Shown piece by piece: positions 5,075-26,632 of a DNA stretch of 41,038 nucleotides. The stretch comes from a virus. The notes beneath the pieces are model-generated. The model saw only the letters and a program-made list of their open reading frames with translations. It was not told the DNA's origin and ran no database searches. The number at the start of each line of letters is the position of its first letter. Positions within the stretch are counted from its first letter, which is position 1. The stretch lies in IMG/VR virus record IMGVR_UViG_3300036772_000181, positions 1 to 41,038 of that record; one strand, 5' to 3'. A program made the position numbers and the translations under genes.

Positions 5075-5277
5075 TACGGTTTCCAGCCCATGGAAAGGTT
5101 GGCCTGTTTCATGATCGAGCGGAACAGGCGCGCGTATACGTCGCGGTCGTTATCGCCCATCGCGTCAAAATGCTTGCGCTGGTCGGGCGACATGCAACTG
5201 TCTGCCGCCGCATGCATCAGTTTGAACATGGGTTCGGTCTGGTCGGGCTTGCGGTTGTACGGGTCGGCATTGGTCAA
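5074..5277 (-). CDS. Small hypothetical protein before portal
   Basis: 67 residues from a TTG start at 5277, with GGGGGAA 5 nt upstream. The start overlaps the stop of the preceding 51-codon gene (TTGA) and the end overlaps the portal start (TAATG), so this is tight translational coupling. The predicted protein is helical (SPDQRKHFDAMGDNDRDVYARLFRSIMKQANLSMGWKP). Function unknown. Placement between terminase and portal suggests a head assembly or packaging role. Confidence 0.75.
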   Translation of the reverse strand: MTNADPYNRKPDQTEPMFKLMHAAADSCMSPDQRKHFDAMGDNDRDVYARLFRSIMKQANLSMGWKP

Positions 5278-5429
5278 AACAGTTCCCCCTGTGCGGGCCG
5301 CTCTGCTGCCTTGCGGCGGCGGTTCGCGGCCCAGCGCAATAACACGGCATGAAACGCGGGCTGTCTGCGTCGGCGCGAGGCTTCGCCCAGATAGACGCGG
5401 GCCATGCGGATATGAAACGCGCGGTTCAT
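5274..5429 (-). CDS. Small basic Arg-rich protein
   Basis: 51 residues, ATG 5429. The start overlaps the upstream stop by one base (TGATG) and the end overlaps the next start by two. The sequence is basic (MNRAFHIRMARVYLGEASRR..., then RWAANRRRKAAERP) and probably one or two helices. Coupling on both sides and good codons support it as real. Function unknown. The charge would suit DNA or RNA contact. Confidence 0.65.
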   Translation of the reverse strand: MNRAFHIRMARVYLGEASRRRRQPAFHAVLLRWAANRRRKAAERPAQGELF

Positions 5430-5746
5430 CAATCCCAGCCGTTCGCGCGCCCGTAGTCAGTCACGCGAAAATGCGCGCGCTCATAGGTGCGCCAGTAGTC
5501 GTCGGCGCCAGCGGGGAACCAGTGCGCCGACACGTCGCCGTCGCTGTTGATCGTCCAGCAACCGTCAACGTCGGCGCCGTTGCCGGTGGCGTACGCGTAG
5601 CCATATCCCGAACTGTTATCGTTGCATCGGCGGTCGGTGAGGTGTATCGCCCCGCCGTCGGTGTTGCCCACTATGCCGACCGTGCCCCACGCGTGACAGA
5701 GTGAGGCCAGCGCCATCAACACCAAACCCGCCAGAATCCGTTTCAT
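5429..5746 (-). CDS. Exported small protein (signal peptide)
   Basis: 105 residues. The N-terminus MKRILAGLVLMALASLCHA is a clear Sec signal peptide with an AxA-type cleavage site. The mature part is about 86 residues, rich in Gly/Asp/Tyr/Trp, with two Cys (RRCNDNSS, DGCWTI) that could form a disulfide in the periplasm. GAGGTG precedes the ATG. It lies just after the large terminase gene, an unusual place for an exported protein. Candidates are superinfection exclusion, a lysis helper or an envelope modifier. No family recognised. Confidence 0.72.
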   Translation of the reverse strand: MKRILAGLVLMALASLCHAWGTVGIVGNTDGGAIHLTDRRCNDNSSGYGYAYATGNGADVDGCWTINSDGDVSAHWFPAGADDYWRTYERAHFRVTDYGRANGWD

Positions 5747-5755
5747 CGCTGCACC

Positions 5756-7168
5756 TCATGCAACTGTCAGTTTCGGGTACTTCAAAGCCTGGCCCCAGCC
5801 GTTAAGGCTGTTATTCATGAATGGCACGTCGAGCGCGTAATAGCGGAAAGCGTCCGACCCATGGCTAAACTCGTCGTGTGCCGGGTGCGAGGAAAACACG
5901 CCGTATTTTTCGCTGAATTCCCAGCGGTAATTCGTCAGGCACTCGACCCCGCGCGCGCACTTGTCGGCGTCGAAATAGCACGTCGGCAAAATCGTACGGG
6001 CCGCATGTATGCCGTCTTCTAACGACAGGTTCGGCGTAATCTGGAAATGTATCCCCAGCCCTGCGGCGGTTTCAAAGCGGCTACGCCCGGTGCCTAGCTC
6101 GCGCACGGCGATATCGTGCGGGGCGAAGTGCTGGCCGTAGTTATAGCGGCGGTCGGTCAACACTTTCGCGTAGTGCGGCAAGCCCTCGCCGTTCATTTCG
6201 TAATAGTCAATCAGGCGGCGCTCAGTGCCCACTAGCTGACAGAACCATATGGCCGTCGCGTCGCCTACGCCCAAATCCCAGATGGTATGCACGGGTAGCG
6301 TTGGCTCATGCGGCACGCGGCCAATGCGATTTTCAAAAAACGCCGCTTCCATTTCGCGGCGGTAAATCGCGCCCGGAATCTCTATCACGTCCCAGCGTCC
6401 TGACAGCAACGCGCGGCGCTGCATTTCATCGAGCAGTAACAGCGTCGCCTCATAATCGGCCCCCAGATAGGGATTGTCTTTCAGCAATGCGGGAATGAAC
6501 CGGCGCGAGATTGCGCGCTGTTCGCCACTGCCCAGCGTCACAATCTGGCGCGAGAGGGTCGGGCCGCCGTCGTTACCAATGCCCCAGCGTTCTTTCACCC
6601 ATTTATGGCCGCGCCCGCCTGGGTTGCAGTTCGCGCGCACCACGCATTTAAGGTCTGGGTTAGACGTGCGCAGGCGCGAAAACATGTACACATAGGGGAC
6701 ATTGGTCGGCCATTGCGTCAGTTCCTCGAATGCAATGAACTGGAATTCAAACGACTGCCATCTAAACCGGTCGTCTTCGGTCTGCATGTAGCTGGTGTAA
6801 ATCTCTGCACCCGACGGAAAGCGCCATACGTGGTCGGTTTTATTGAATTCGGCGCCGGGGTAGACATGCGGGTAAATCTCGCGCATGCGGCTTTCCAGTT
6901 CGCGCAGTTCGGGGTACGTCGGGCGAAAAATGATTGCCTTGTAGTCGCTATGCAGAACCGCGTCCTGCCACAAGCCCAGCGCGTCAATCACCAGCGCGTC
7001 GGTCTTGCCCCCGCCAGCGGCGCCGCCGTACAAAACCTCGAATTCGGACGCGGCGAGGTATTCGGCCTGCTTGGGGGTCGGCGACCAGGCGGGCGAATCA
7101 ACCGCCAGCCCGTTGTCGCCGTCGTCGTCGTCGGCCCAGGCGTTAGGGCGCGGCGGTCGGCGCTGCAT
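5756..7168 (-). CDS. terL: Terminase large subunit
   Basis: 470 residues. This is the DNA-packaging motor ATPase and nuclease. Walker A GGAAGGGKT is at residues 48-56 and Walker B FIAFEE at 144-149. The RNase H-like nuclease has acidic residues in WDLG (D298), APHD (D352) and the late motif HDEFSHGSDAFRY (D439). An acidic DDDDGD stretch lies near the N-terminus. The start overlaps the small subunit gene by 26 bp. It works with the small subunit and portal to pump DNA into the procapsid. Confidence 0.95.
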   Translation of the reverse strand: MQRRPPRPNAWADDDDGDNGLAVDSPAWSPTPKQAEYLAASEFEVLYGGAAGGGKTDALVIDALGLWQDAVLHSDYKAIIFRPTYPELRELESRMREIYPHVYPGAEFNKTDHVWRFPSGAEIYTSYMQTEDDRFRWQSFEFQFIAFEELTQWPTNVPYVYMFSRLRTSNPDLKCVVRANCNPGGRGHKWVKERWGIGNDGGPTLSRQIVTLGSGEQRAISRRFIPALLKDNPYLGADYEATLLLLDEMQRRALLSGRWDVIEIPGAIYRREMEAAFFENRIGRVPHEPTLPVHTIWDLGVGDATAIWFCQLVGTERRLIDYYEMNGEGLPHYAKVLTDRRYNYGQHFAPHDIAVRELGTGRSRFETAAGLGIHFQITPNLSLEDGIHAARTILPTCYFDADKCARGVECLTNYRWEFSEKYGVFSSHPAHDEFSHGSDAFRYYALDVPFMNNSLNGWGQALKYPKLTVA

Positions 7169-12091: not shown

Positions 12092-12119
12092 TTGCACTCT
12101 GCTAGCACTATGATAGAAT
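12092..12119 (+). promoter_or_regulatory. Rightward promoter/operator
   Basis: TTGCAC, 16 bp, TAGAAT. The spacer contains GCTAGCAC and the -10 lies in the next 11-bp unit. It stands 35 bp before the gene at 12154. Confidence 0.7.
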
Positions 12120-17099: not shown

Positions 17100-17132
17100 T
17101 CTGCTGGCGCTGTGCTAGCACTGTGAAACCTT
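17100..17132. promoter_or_regulatory. 11-bp phased array abutting pentamer array
   Basis: TCTGCTGGCGC, TGTGCTAGCAC and TGTGAAACCTT at exact 11-bp steps. The third unit is at the same time the first GTGAAACCTTG box of the pentamer array, which links the two repeat systems. Confidence 0.65.
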
Positions 17133-18088
17133 GTCCTGCGCGGTCTGGCACGGTGTTGCCGAGTGCTGCCGCGCCCAGTCGAGCGCTGCCGGGTTCAGTG
17201 CTGTCGTGCGCTGCCCAGCGGGTAAACCTTGCCTCGCGTTGCCCGGCGTCACGTTGCCATGCCATGCCTGGTCTAGCCTAGACGTGCGCCGCTGCGCCCC
17301 GTCCGGTCGGGCCGGGTCATGCGCTGCCTCGCCGAGCCATGCCACGCGTAAAACCTTGTCCTGTCATGCCGTACCGCGTCTTGCAGTGTCAAGCCCAGCC
17401 GCGTCAAGTGTTGCCGCGTCAAGCCGGGCGCCGCCCAGCGCAGTCAAAAACCCTTGTCAGGTGCTGCCATGTCTTGCCGAGTCATGCCGCGCCTAATCGT
17501 GCCATGGCGTGCCATGCGCTGCGGCGGTAAAACCTTGTCCTGTGCTGCGTCGTCAGGTATCGCCAAGTTTCGCACCGTGCAGACTCGCCGCGCCTGGCGC
17601 GGTCAGGCATCGCCCCGCCGTAAAACCCTTGTCGTGTGCTGCGTCGTCGGGAGCCGCCAAGTCGAGCCGGGGCCGGTCGTGTCATGTCCCGCCTTGCGCC
17701 GCGCCGCGTAGTGCTGCCGCGCATCCTGTGAAACCTTGTCGTGCGTTGCCTGGCCGTGCGTGGCCATGCGGTGCCGGGTGCTGTCATGTCAAGCCCAGCC
17801 CAGCCGGGTAAAACCTCGTAAAAACCTTGTCTGGTGCCGCTATGCCGAGCCGAGCGCGGTCGAGTCATGTCTAGTCGAGCGCTACCGGGCTGCGCCAAGC
17901 CTAGCCGGGCGGTGAAACCTTGCGTTGCCTGACCTAATCACGCCGGGCCGCGTCCTGTCGAGCCACGCGCTACCGGGTGCTGCTGCGGTAAAACCTTGTC
18001 CTGTTGCGCCTGGCCGCGCCAAGCCGGGTCCAGTCTGGTCGAGTCTAGCGCCGCCCCGTCAGGCCATGCCGAGCCGAGCCCAGCCATG
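17123..18088. repeat. Interrupted degenerate pentamer array
   Basis: About 966 bp without a credible gene. The plus strand divides into successive 5-base words ending in G and mostly starting with C or T (pattern Y-S-N-N-G). About ten times the run is broken by a GTAAAA or GTGAAA token followed by the words CCTTG and usually TCCTG or TCGTG. Boxes start near 17123, 17222, 17348, 17443, 17527, 17620, 17727, 17808/17818, 17912 and 17988, that is every 76-126 bp. Between boxes 3 and 4 there are exactly 16 words (17364-17443). The array runs from an operator array to within 2 bp of the stop codon at 18090. A 5-base period excludes coding. Role unknown. Confidence 0.85.
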
Positions 18089-18089
18089 C

Positions 18090-18596
18090 TTAACTGACGT
18101 CTTTCAGCGCGAGTGCGGCGGCCATCATGCCGGGCAATTCGCGCCCCATCTGCTTGACCTGCGATTCGATCCGTTTAACGGCCTTGTCGCCTGCCATCTG
18201 TTCAGTGACAGCGAAGACAGACAGAGCGATATTGTGCTTGACCTGGCTTTCGCGGTCCAGTTTTTCGTACGTCGCGCATAAGACCGTGCGCGCTGCCTTG
18301 CGCGAGGTACGGCGGATATGTGCGCGCGCCTTGTCGGCGGTCTGTACAATCTCGCGGTCGTTCAGGCGGCGCAGGCCAATATCAATGATTACGTCGAATA
18401 CGCGGCGTTCATCGCGCAGCAGTTTGCGCCGTGCCGTTTCGAGTGCGCCACGTCCGACGCCCTGCACATCGCGCCCGATAGCCGCTGTCATTTCCGCATA
18501 GCTCAGTTCGCCGCCGACGGGCAACTGTGCCAGCACGCGCGCGAGCAACGCGCTATCACTGTCTGGCCGTGGGGTAAAGTCCGGTTTCGTCGTCAT
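18090..18596 (-). CDS. Hypothetical helical protein
   Basis: 168 residues from ATG 18596, one base after the stop of the preceding gene. The N-terminal third resembles a winged-helix-like segment (DSALLARVLAQLPVGGELSYAEMTAAIGRDVQGVGRGALETARRKLLRDERRVFDVI). The rest is helical and basic (KARAHIRRTSRKAARTVLCATYEKLDRESQVKHNIALSVFAVTEQM). It could bind nucleic acid. The pentamer array would form its 3' untranslated region. Function unknown. Confidence 0.75.
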   Translation of the reverse strand: MTTKPDFTPRPDSDSALLARVLAQLPVGGELSYAEMTAAIGRDVQGVGRGALETARRKLLRDERRVFDVIIDIGLRRLNDREIVQTADKARAHIRRTSRKAARTVLCATYEKLDRESQVKHNIALSVFAVTEQMAGDKAVKRIESQVKQMGRELPGMMAAALALKDVS

Positions 18597-18597
18597 G

Positions 18598-19167
18598 TCA
18601 CGCCTCATAGTCGAGCCAGTCGAGGTGTTCAAGCCGGAAACGACCGTAAAACCCGTTGTTACGCGGCCTGAAACGCCCGATACCGATAAAGTTACCCGCC
18701 TGGCGCAGATGCTGTTCGAAAACCTCGCGCGTCACGGTCTCGTCAAGTATCAGATATTCGACCTTGCCGCCCCACTGGTGTATCACGGGAAAACACTTTT
18801 CGACCCGTGAGCCGCCGCCGCGCCTGCCGTCCGACGGGACAAACAGCCATTCGCCGGGCACGTCGTCCTTTTTGATATTGAGCCGCAAGCCCTCGACTAC
18901 CAATACACCCGCCTCAAAGTGTTTTGTATAGGTCGCCTTACCTTTTCCCGGAATCTGTACAGACAGGTATTTCGCCACTTCGGCGATACAGTTTTTGAAT
19001 GCCATCGGCGGCACATAGACAAAGCCGTCTGCGTCAACGTGCAACCGGTCGCGCCAGGTGCGCGCCTCATAGTCGCGTGCGCTTTCCTTGTTCAGTTTTT
19101 CCGTCGTGTAATGCCGGGACTGGCTATAGGGCGACATGCCCTTGATAGTGGCAATGGCTTTTTTCAC
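18598..19167 (-). CDS. Unknown phage protein, possibly RAMP-like
   Basis: 189 residues, basic. Well-ordered throughout: KGMSPYSQSRHY, DYEARTWRDRLHVDADGFVYVPPMAFKNCIAEVAKYLS, GEWLFVPSDGRRGGGSRVEKCFPVIHQWGGKVEYLILDE, and a Gly/Arg-rich end FIGIGRFRPRNNGFYGRF. The last motif and the MAFKNCIAEVAKY helix recall Cas7/RAMP nucleic-acid binders, but I cannot confirm that. It is the type of protein found near phage recombination genes. Preceded by an 11-bp array at 19190. Confidence 0.75.
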   Translation of the reverse strand: MKKAIATIKGMSPYSQSRHYTTEKLNKESARDYEARTWRDRLHVDADGFVYVPPMAFKNCIAEVAKYLSVQIPGKGKATYTKHFEAGVLVVEGLRLNIKKDDVPGEWLFVPSDGRRGGGSRVEKCFPVIHQWGGKVEYLILDETVTREVFEQHLRQAGNFIGIGRFRPRNNGFYGRFRLEHLDWLDYEA

Positions 19168-20666: not shown

Positions 20667-20990
20667 TTACGCCTCAGTGTCGGGTCGGTCGTCGCTTCGC
20701 CATACAGGTGCATATGCGGCGCTTTCCTGTTGCAAACGGGTAAGGGTATTGCAAACACAGTCGTATATCAATCCGGCAAAATCGAGCATTTCGCCGTGCT
20801 CGTCACAGTGTGGCGCGAGCGCTTCCAGCACGTCGCGCGCGCCCTGCCACCACGCGTAAGACTGCGCGCGGTACGCGACCGAATCCGGCGCAGGCCGCCT
20901 ACCTGAAACGCTTGTCACGCTGTCCATTGCGGCGTTTAACCGTGTGGTTAGCGTGATCGAAATTTGTAATTCCATCGGGGCAGTATGCAT
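20667..20990 (-). CDS. Small hypothetical protein
   Basis: 107 residues if ATG 20990 is used (GGGA 8 nt upstream). Later ATGs at 20975 and 20927 are possible. The 92-bp overlap with the preceding gene makes the start uncertain. The body is helical (YAWWQGARDVLEALAPHCDEHGEMLDFAGLIYDCVCNTLTRLQQES). Function unknown. Confidence 0.65.
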   Translation of the reverse strand: MHTAPMELQISITLTTRLNAAMDSVTSVSGRRPAPDSVAYRAQSYAWWQGARDVLEALAPHCDEHGEMLDFAGLIYDCVCNTLTRLQQESAAYAPVWRSDDRPDTEA

Positions 20991-21243
20991 GACTCATTTC
21001 CCGGAGTTCGGCGAGGCGTTCGGACGCCTGACGTTGCAGCGCCAGACAGCGCCCGCGTATGTCGTCGCCGGGGTAGCCCATCGCCAGCCCCAGACAGTCG
21101 AGACAGCCGACGTAATAGCTGATTTCGACAGCCCAGGCGAGCGCGGGCGTCAGTATCTGGCGCGGGCCGTAAATATCGGCATGAAAGAACAAATCCCGCA
21201 ACTGGGGCGCGTAACGCCAGAAGTCGAGTTTTTCACGTTTCAT
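20899..21243 (-). CDS. Small hypothetical protein
   Basis: 114 residues. It has a helical core with two Cys (ALAWAVEISYYVGCLDCLGLAMGYPGDDIRGRCLALQRQASERLAELREMSH) and a basic tail (HTVKRRNGQRDKRFR). Start overlaps the upstream stop (ATGA). The 3' end overlaps the next gene. The basic tail could contact nucleic acid. No family recognised. Confidence 0.7.
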   Translation of the reverse strand: MKREKLDFWRYAPQLRDLFFHADIYGPRQILTPALAWAVEISYYVGCLDCLGLAMGYPGDDIRGRCLALQRQASERLAELREMSHAYCPDGITNFDHANHTVKRRNGQRDKRFR

Positions 21244-24463: not shown

Positions 24464-24494
24464 TTTGGGCATTCATTCAACCGGAGCCGCCCAT

Positions 24495-25418
24495 ATGTCT
24501 AACGCCCTTACCGTCATCCAGCCCGCCCAGTACAACCGCACGCAGTTCGTCGGCGGTTCCGATATCGCCGCGATTCTGGGCGTCAATCCCTACGCCAGCG
24601 CGCTCGACTGCTGGCTCGACAAAATCGACCCCGACAGCCGCCCCAATAGCGATAACCTCGCCACGCGTCGCGGCAAGCGTATGGAGCCGGTCATTCTGGA
24701 TTGGGCGCGCGAAGATTTCGGGCTTGAGGTCGAGCACAGGAACCGCCGTTTCGTTGATCCTGCCGTGCCGTTTTTCGCGTCGGAAATTGACGCCGAAACA
24801 ACCGTTGACGGCGAGGCGGTCAACGTCGAGGTCAAAACCGTGCATCCGTTCCTGTCGAAAGAATGGGGCGTTGAGGAAAGCGACGGCCTGCCGCTGCACT
24901 ACCTCGCGCAGACGCAATGGGGTCTGTCGGTCACGGGCCGCAATCTGTGCGTGGTGTATGCCGGTGTCGGCGACGAACTGCGCCGCTACTTTGTCGAGCG
25001 CGACGACGGCCTGATTAGCCTTATGCGCCATGAAGCCGAAACCTTCTGGCGCGACTACGTTAAAACGGGCCTGCGCCCCGACATTGACCCGAACCATAGC
25101 CGGGTTTTCGAAACCCTGCGCCGCCTGTTCCCTGGCACCAATGGCGAGGCCATTAACGCCTCGACCACGCATGAAGCCTGGTATAAGACCATGACCGACG
25201 CCGCCGACAAAGCCGCCATGTATGAGGCTGTCGCCAAAGGGGCCAAAGCCCATCTGGTCGCCGAAATGGGCGAGGCCGCGCAACTGGTGTTTGACGACGG
25301 GCAGGCACTCAAACGCGCAAAGCGCAAACGCGTCGGCTTTACCGTTGACGCAACCGAATACTGGGATATCCGCGTGGCGAAGTTTAAAGAAACCGCTGCG
25401 AAAGACGCCGCCAGATAA
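24495..25418 (+). CDS. YqaJ-family exonuclease/recombinase
   Basis: 307 residues from ATG 24495 (GGAG upstream). It degrades one strand of linear DNA to give tails for annealing, the lambda Exo role. FVGGSDIAAILGVNPY is the family opening; RRGKRMEPVILDWARE holds the first acidic residue (E64); FFASEIDAE gives D99; NVEVKTV gives the ExK pair (E112, K114). Pairs with the RecT gene 59 bp downstream. Probably used for phage recombination and concatemer formation. Confidence 0.92.
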   Translation: MSNALTVIQPAQYNRTQFVGGSDIAAILGVNPYASALDCWLDKIDPDSRPNSDNLATRRGKRMEPVILDWAREDFGLEVEHRNRRFVDPAVPFFASEIDAETTVDGEAVNVEVKTVHPFLSKEWGVEESDGLPLHYLAQTQWGLSVTGRNLCVVYAGVGDELRRYFVERDDGLISLMRHEAETFWRDYVKTGLRPDIDPNHSRVFETLRRLFPGTNGEAINASTTHEAWYKTMTDAADKAAMYEAVAKGAKAHLVAEMGEAAQLVFDDGQALKRAKRKRVGFTVDATEYWDIRVAKFKETAAKDAAR

Positions 25419-25421
25419 ACG

Positions 25422-25461
25422 TTACAGAATGCTGGCTATGTGCTAGCATTCTGCTATCAAC
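25422..25461 (+). promoter_or_regulatory. Rightward promoter/operator
   Basis: TTACAG, 16 bp, TAGCAT, with units ATGCTGGCTAT, GTGCTAGCATT and CTGCTATCAAC every 11 bp. It lies between the exonuclease and RecT genes. Confidence 0.72.
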
Positions 25462-25477
25462 TTTTCCGGGATAAATC

Positions 25478-26632
25478 ATGTCACGCACTGAACAACTCAA
25501 ACAGCATATGCAGGCGAAGACGAACGGCGGCAATGGCGCCAGCAACGGCGCCAGCAACGGTAACGCCGTCGCGCTGTCGCCCAATGCGCAGGCCGACGCA
25601 CTTGCCAAGTTCCTGCAATCGCCTGCCGTGCTCGCGCAGATTGCCAAAGCCCTGCCGCGTCATCTGACGGCGGATAGGCTGATCCGCATTGCGACGACCG
25701 AACTGCGCAAAATCCCCAAGCTGGCGCAGTGCTCGCCCCAGTCTTTTCTGGGCGCCGTGATCCAGTGCGCGCAACTGGGGTTAGAGCCGGGTTCGGCGCT
25801 GGGGCATGTCTACATTATCCCGTTTGACAAATGGGTCAAGAAAAACGGCGCCTGGGTTCTGGCCGAAACGGTCGCCACGGTCATTCTGGGCTATCGCGGC
25901 ATGATCGACCTCGCGCGCCGTAGCGGCCAGATTGAGAGCATAGAAGCGTGGCCGGTGTACATCGGCGACCGGTTCGAATGCACGCTGGGGCTCGACCCGA
26001 ATCTGATTCACGCCCCCGACTGGGAGAATGCAGGCCGCACGGTGTCGGATAACCTGCGCTTTGTGTACGCGGTCGCCAAACTCAAAGACGGCGGCAAACA
26101 GTTCGCGGTCATGTCGCGCGCCGAAGTCGAAATGATCCGTGACAGGACATTTGCGAAAAACCGCGTTGACGCCGCGAAGTACGACGGCCCCTGGAAAACC
26201 GACTTCGAGCAGATGGCATTGAAAACCGTTGTGCGCCGCCTGTTCAAGTTCCTGCCGGTGTCGGTCGAAATGGTCATTATGGACGCGCTGCGCGCGCCGA
26301 ACGCCGACGAACTGGCGCTGGCCGATACTGCCGCGCTCATGCTTGAAGACAACCCCAGCCCGGCATTCGAGATGCAGCCGGGCGACAGCACGCGCGAGCG
26401 CGAGCCGGTCGAACAGAACGCCGCCCAGGCCGACGACGAACAGGAAAGCATGCAGACCGATTTTGACGCGCCGGGCCAGTCGTTAGGCCAGCGTATTGAA
26501 TACGCCCTCACGAATGCGAAAACCCGCGACGTGCTCGACATTGCCGCCGACGAAATACGCGAACTGGCGCAACCCGACGAACGCGCGAAACTTGAGGCGC
26601 TTTACCGTGAGCGGCGCGACAGTCTCGAATAA
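25478..26632 (+). CDS. recT: RecT single-strand annealing protein
   Basis: 384 residues. The RecT core is clear: RHLTADRLIRIATTELRKIPKLAQCSPQSFLGAVIQCAQLGLEPGSALGHVYIIPF, then ILGYRGMIDLARRSGQI, then WKTDFEQMALKTVVRRLFKFLPVSVEM. A low-complexity N-terminal segment (NGGNGASNGASNGN) and an acidic C-terminal tail flank it. The tail of about 100 residues ends in a helical domain (GQSLGQRIEYALTNAKTRDVLDIAADEIRELAQPDERAKLEALYRERRDSLE). It anneals the single strands made by the exonuclease. Confidence 0.95.
   Translation: MSRTEQLKQHMQAKTNGGNGASNGASNGNAVALSPNAQADALAKFLQSPAVLAQIAKALPRHLTADRLIRIATTELRKIPKLAQCSPQSFLGAVIQCAQLGLEPGSALGHVYIIPFDKWVKKNGAWVLAETVATVILGYRGMIDLARRSGQIESIEAWPVYIGDRFECTLGLDPNLIHAPDWENAGRTVSDNLRFVYAVAKLKDGGKQFAVMSRAEVEMIRDRTFAKNRVDAAKYDGPWKTDFEQMALKTVVRRLFKFLPVSVEMVIMDALRAPNADELALADTAALMLEDNPSPAFEMQPGDSTREREPVEQNAAQADDEQESMQTDFDAPGQSLGQRIEYALTNAKTRDVLDIAADEIRELAQPDERAKLEALYRERRDSLE

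Follow-up and report, generated by a model that had tools for sequence, protein, structure and literature searches.

What is the kilobase of DNA at 17123–18088 of this phage, which reads almost throughout as five-base words that differ in sequence but keep their period? We analyzed the IMG/VR virus record in which it lies over its whole length of 41,038 bp, referred to here as the window. The data almost certainly identify the locus as a VIPR (Viral Interference Programmable Repeat) system, in which vipr, vap, and then an array of ten guide RNAs (vrRNAs) follow one another on the minus strand. This reading rests on features observed here: the period, the contrast between the core and the NN positions of the words, a partner gene with its family and predicted fold, and the linkage of that gene to the array. 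According to the 2026 bioRxiv preprint that described VIPR (PMC13142463), the system combines a RAMP encoded by the phage with an accessory gene, vap, and with vrRNAs that contain 9 to 16 YNNGG repeats.

Period, words and units of the array

Bases five apart agree at a rate of 0.44 in the array, compared to ∼0.25 in the flanks, and lag-5 identity exceeds that of 300 dinucleotide-preserving shuffles (z = +11.3); lags of 10 to 30 in steps of 5 are all raised as well (z = 8 to 12). The 5-base period claimed in the original prediction is thus real, and a 300-bp scan detected no second region with such a period in the whole window. A word parser recovered a single array of 187 to 193 words, while a unit-wise parse of the minus strand gave 10 head-to-tail units with 167 words in total. 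The count of "about 190" words first proposed therefore becomes 167 to 193, depending on the parser used. Phase, which was said to hold for 16 to 24 words, is held within units, though over a range of 13 to 23 words.

The words had initially been read on the plus strand, but the minus strand is the functional one. There the word is N-N-S-R-C, with the full S-R-C core present in 85% of words in the unit-wise parse. Among these 167 words the core trinucleotides were GGC (63), GGT (4), GAC (42), CGC (25), and CAC (12); GGY cores thus make up 67/167 (40%). The sequence CAAGG(G)TTT..AC closes every unit, and the constant tail after each unit is short, about 10 to 14 nt. About ten such boxes were expected; we found 11 minus-strand copies, 6 of them exact GTRAAACCTTG on the plus strand, and one is a duplicate that lacks words (Table 1). 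No structured 3′ tail or pseudoknot was evident in the units of the window array. Rfam gave no match for the window or ten relatives, and hence no known ribozyme such as the hammerhead. A G-quadruplex was rejected by reasoning, as the core of the window array loses GG in most words. The array starts 2 nt past the stop codon of the gene at 18090, and its non-coding status, as originally proposed, is supported.

Table 1. Features of the VIPR locus and related genes in the window
Feature	Position	Strand	Description
vrRNA unit 10	17123..17217	-	17 words + tail
vrRNA unit 9	17222..17345	-	23 words + tail
vrRNA unit 8	17348..17442	-	17 words + tail
vrRNA unit 7	17443..17525	-	14 words + tail
vrRNA unit 6	17527..17616	-	16 words + tail
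vrRNA unit 5	17620..17725	-	19 words + tail
vrRNA unit 4	17728..17807	-	14 words + tail
Duplicated tail	17808..17817	-	GAGGTTTTAC, without words
vrRNA unit 3	17818..17908	-	16 words + tail
vrRNA unit 2	17912..17986	-	13 words + tail; predicted target gene in sister phages L002 and L003
vrRNA unit 1	17988..18087	-	18 words + tail AAGGTTTTAC
Candidate vap (VIPR accessory)	18090..18608	-	172 aa from ATG at 18608; overlaps vipr stop
vipr	18598..19167	-	189-aa predicted RAMP (Cas7-type) protein, phrog_4652
Own homolog of unit 2 target gene	20899..21243	-	protein 62% identical; guide match 14/20, against 18/20 in sister phages
YqaJ exonuclease and RecT annealase genes	24465..26632	+	plus-strand cassette

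We note that a separate element, TGCTAGCA, occurs eight times in the window (at 12100, 12882, 15838, 17113, 23633, 24432, 25441, and 34538), mainly between genes and once directly after the array. Six copies were present in L002 and eight in L003, in the parts of these contigs examined. The set probably represents the operators of a phage regulator.

The genes beside the array

The product of the gene at 18598 matched phrog_4652, an unnamed family, in PHROGs (E = 7e-12), and no family of Pfam or NCBIfam. Its single sequence matched PDB 36pp_D, 'SUSP1 Vipr protein' (E = 3.5e-4), and a profile of 86 relatives matched the same chain over nearly its full length (E = 3.1e-39). An AlphaFold model was predicted with a pLDDT of 96 and a pTM of 0.88. 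Its top Foldseek matches were all Cas7-type RAMPs, namely type VII Cas7, Csm3-like proteins, and Cmr subunits (E about 1e-7, probability 1), and a matching viral model is labeled 'Cas system-associated RAMP superfamily protein'. Within the family, W132, G162, and G175 are invariant, G158, G164, and R167 are nearly so, and the C-terminal motif is G-rich. AlphaFold, Foldseek, and the conserved C-terminal G/R motif agree on a RAMP fold with an RRM-type core and G-loop, and by profile and predicted structure this gene encodes Vipr, a single-domain Cas7-type RAMP. In cultured phages, phrog_4652 homologs are labeled 'hypothetical protein', as with Saal gene 51 and one in Gordonia phage Trine.

By iterated HMM search starting from the gene at 18598, a Vipr homolog was detected in 140/193 array loci, a lower bound because the loci are fragments, compared to 2/98 array-free viral and 0/120 bacterial loci, the array and array-free loci having been fetched by different patterns. 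In array loci with a homolog, the array usually lies 0 to 20 nt from the vipr stop codon on the sense strand. The original prediction had suggested an RNA platform for a multimeric binder; this stands, with the adjacent Vipr as the predicted binder, but not in the TRAP-like or Rho-like form then envisaged. In the TRAP-like version, a ring-shaped RNA-binding protein would wrap intercistronic pentamers and control translation of the next gene. Such a role would suit the fixed triplet with its 2-nt spacer, the usual block size of 10 to 12 words, and the position of the array after a stop codon and ahead of the next SD/ATG in many relatives. We nevertheless regard it as very improbable: the protein linked to the arrays is a RAMP, a TRAP homolog (PF02081) was found in 0/50 array contigs and TRAP was rejected as the partner, and the arrays of cluster J phages are antisense to both flanking genes. 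Nor did we find support for a mere 3′ untranslated element of the gene at 18090.

Across loci, the orientation of the array follows that of the linked vipr in nearly all cases. This argues against a multivalent DNA site, such as a centromere or the seed of a filament, bound by a phage protein with 5-bp spacing, as do the many separate short arrays found per phage and the finding that vrRNAs are expressed and co-purify with Vipr (PMC13142463). Five base pairs do correspond to half a helical turn, a point of geometry only, and we give this explanation almost no credence; the centromere and decoy roles suggested earlier are likewise not supported.

The gene between vipr and the array has homologs in 45 loci, and vipr is also present in 41 of these, on the same strand and mostly adjacent. 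Its product was modeled with a pLDDT of 91, and its Foldseek matches were weak, several of them being winged-helix DNA-binding domains. This gene is likely a VIPR accessory (vap) gene, as judged by its place and its recurrence beside vipr.

Arrays in other phages and selection on their words

Two search patterns, one of the box and four words and a later one of AAACCTTG and six words, recovered the same architecture in dozens of viral contigs unrelated to one another, and the pure GCCNN pattern gave at least 120 matches. Across viral loci totaling 2.29 Mb the word parser reported 383 arrays, against none in bacterial loci (0.9 Mb) and 17 when sequence was reversed; all parsed loci were fetched by related patterns, and the 383 arrays are not an estimate of prevalence. 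Cultured phages of Mycobacterium, Gordonia, and Pseudomonas carry arrays, as does a cyanophage; the M. smegmatis phages Saal and Gorge are examples. No array was found in E. coli, Burkholderiales, or Cyanobacteria genomes, which is weak evidence given the rarity of arrays, and a pattern scan of genome contigs returned chance matches. A mimic of the pattern is the plain (GCCAA)n tandem repeat of Janthinobacterium sp. LM6 (L140 record; G051:C1:1777497-1777574), which lacks NN diversity.

Some of these arrays have been annotated as protein-coding genes, namely Mycobacterium phage Donkeykong gene 48 (L269 1388-1774) and Dallas gene 35 (L268 1474-1665). The array blocks of LittleE (L408 290-600, 1800-2060) and Trine (L270 1450-1600) alternate with tRNA T-arm-like hairpins, GGTTCGAnTCC, for which Rfam gave no match. 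Between the blocks of other phages (L273, L298, L332, L351, and L238) lie phage-specific constant spacers, among them a 47-nt hairpin, TTCTTCTCAACGG, tACCTCA, and GGAACG; such spacers represent phage-specific tails or processing signals.

A comparison of 122 caps gave 1.5 to 2 bits per word for the core trinucleotide close to the cap; NN carried next to no information, apart from an AA gradient approaching the tail. This gradient suggests that the words next to the tail belong to a constant handle and not to the guide. It had also brought A-mutagenesis of the DGR type to mind, which was set aside as a guide role explains the free NN. Related phages differ from one another at rates of 0.07, 0.02, and 0.02 in the three core positions and of 0.34 in NN (174 non-independent pairs). 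In L209 and L220, whose flanks are 86% identical, 0/75 core positions and 30/50 NN positions have changed. The NN pairs of neighboring words are uncorrelated, and slippage was rejected on this basis. Taken together, the low core divergence against that of NN and the uncorrelated neighbors point to selection for spacing and not recent duplication, as first supposed. A degenerate simple tandem repeat without function, which the gain and loss of whole words between close relatives might recall, is thus hardly credible, not least in view of the tight linkage to one gene family; close mycobacteriophages differ both by such gains and losses and by single NN changes.

Compared to L002, the window carries about 3.4 kb of additional DNA between conserved genes, and the VIPR locus lies within it. 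In mycobacteriophages of clusters F and J, too, arrays are where homology begins or ends, as expected of exchangeable cargo. The same pattern could be read as a recombination linker, with arrays that, through an annealase, mark or generate the borders of modules, and the window does encode YqaJ and RecT. We consider this explanation extremely unlikely, since a cargo locus for defense or offense at a mosaic boundary accounts for the pattern, NN divergence near saturation lowers homology, and RecT scored over the cut-off in just 3/50 array contigs, so that RecT/annealase was rejected as the partner. The gap between the tape-measure and minor-tail genes of cluster J phages is a hot spot of exchange. 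It is occupied by a gene for endonuclease VII, by a VIPR locus, or by no more than a leftover array (L405 1489-2466, Minerva; L408 579-1741, LittleE).

Predicted guide function and comparison with known systems

In the published system, rival phages are repressed by vrRNAs whose NN pairs read double-stranded DNA, leaving out one base between pairs (PMC13142463). This mechanism places the message in the NN pairs, which pair with target DNA, and not in the spacing. By analogy with the preprint, the array of the window would be transcribed leftward and its RNA assembled with Vipr into an RNP. The conserved trinucleotide of each pentamer (S-R-C here, GGY in the type species) would anchor one Vipr subunit, such that the single-domain RAMP coats the guide RNA and leaves the variable NN pair exposed. 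The NN pairs would then read double-stranded DNA with one base skipped between pairs (NNxNNx...), and binding would repress transcription of the genes of competing phages.

The skip rule was fixed beforehand from the preprint, and the ten units were scored against the two related phages L002 and L003, including additional stretches of their contigs. In each of these sister phages, unit 2 matches a small gene on its antisense strand, at 9062-9100 in L003, with 18/20 bases over ten words at skip 1, and every skipped base is a codon wobble position. Of the two mismatching words, one falls in a Leu codon (CT. vs TTA) and the other reflects a Thr/Ser change. None of 400 permutations of unit 2 equaled this match, and 18/600 permuted ten-unit sets did so, for a family-wise P of about 0.03. 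The remaining three of the 13 words had no match in the L002/L003 target, the other nine units gave nothing above noise against L002 and L003 sequence, and no exact 10-word target of unit 2 was found in IMG/VR. Over 230 blocks from all loci, the excess of strong matches at skip 1 over skips 0, 2, and 3 and reversed order was weak (≥34 in 8, compared to 2, 2, 3, and 2). The sequence match is suggestive of a guide directed at the gene of the sister phages rather than the phage's own allele (Table 1).

The closest known system is the VIPR of SUSP1 (PMC13142463; PDB 36pp), which likewise has a homologous phage-borne Vipr RAMP, a vap-type neighbor, and head-to-tail guide units with a conserved trinucleotide and NN at a 5-nt period; its units have a constant 3′ end, to which the short constant tail of the window units may correspond. 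It has four units, one upstream and three downstream, whereas those of the window are ten and contiguous. In-phase blocks over all loci have a modal length of 10 to 12 words (598 blocks), which fits the published 9 to 16 repeats; the window units are longer, at 13 to 23. Also unlike SUSP1, the window has short tails with no pseudoknot evident, predicted targets, and an S-R-C core of which 40% is GGY. The grammar, which the original prediction took to be undescribed, has been published as GGY/NN, and the preprint allows for 'a related consensus' in some types; on that basis we class the locus as a VIPR with an atypical core and do not claim a new type.

Vipr shares the RAMP fold and many-copy binding along a guide backbone with type VII Cas7, type III Csm3, and related proteins of CRISPR-Cas systems. 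These systems have a 6-nt repeat, compared to 5 nt in the window, and the VIPR guide is read with gaps. No CRISPR array or other cas genes were seen at the locus and no cas family was found among the window proteins scanned, which places it outside class 1 CRISPR-Cas. TRAP (MtrB) and its (N)AGNN targets have in common with VIPR the repeats of triplet and 2-nt spacer around a multimer, with no homology. VIPR has been proposed as an ancestor of CRISPR, and as the first case of RNA guidance through a gapped code.

Among the nearest Vipr relatives, most arrays use 56 to 97% GGY, and L211 uses 89% GAC; in its array at 5200-6000 nearly all cores read GAC, or GTC on the opposite strand, and the adjoining Vipr is 68% identical to that of the window. 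Our tentative proposal, which may well need revision, is that the core code of VIPR is evolvable, with the window Vipr reading a relaxed S-R-C (GGC, GAC, CGC, and CAC) and that of L211 almost only GAC, and that at least one of the ten guides discriminates a sister-phage allele from its own (18/20 vs 14/20). With a bank of ten guides, an atypical core, and close relatives known, the limits of the code and warfare between sister phages that spares the self become directly testable. Unannotated or misannotated vrRNA arrays are also present in well-studied phages with laboratory hosts, Donkeykong gene 48 being one example. The kind of system is already known; compared to its published form, the code of the window copy is unusually loose, and one of its guides apparently fits two sister phages better than self.
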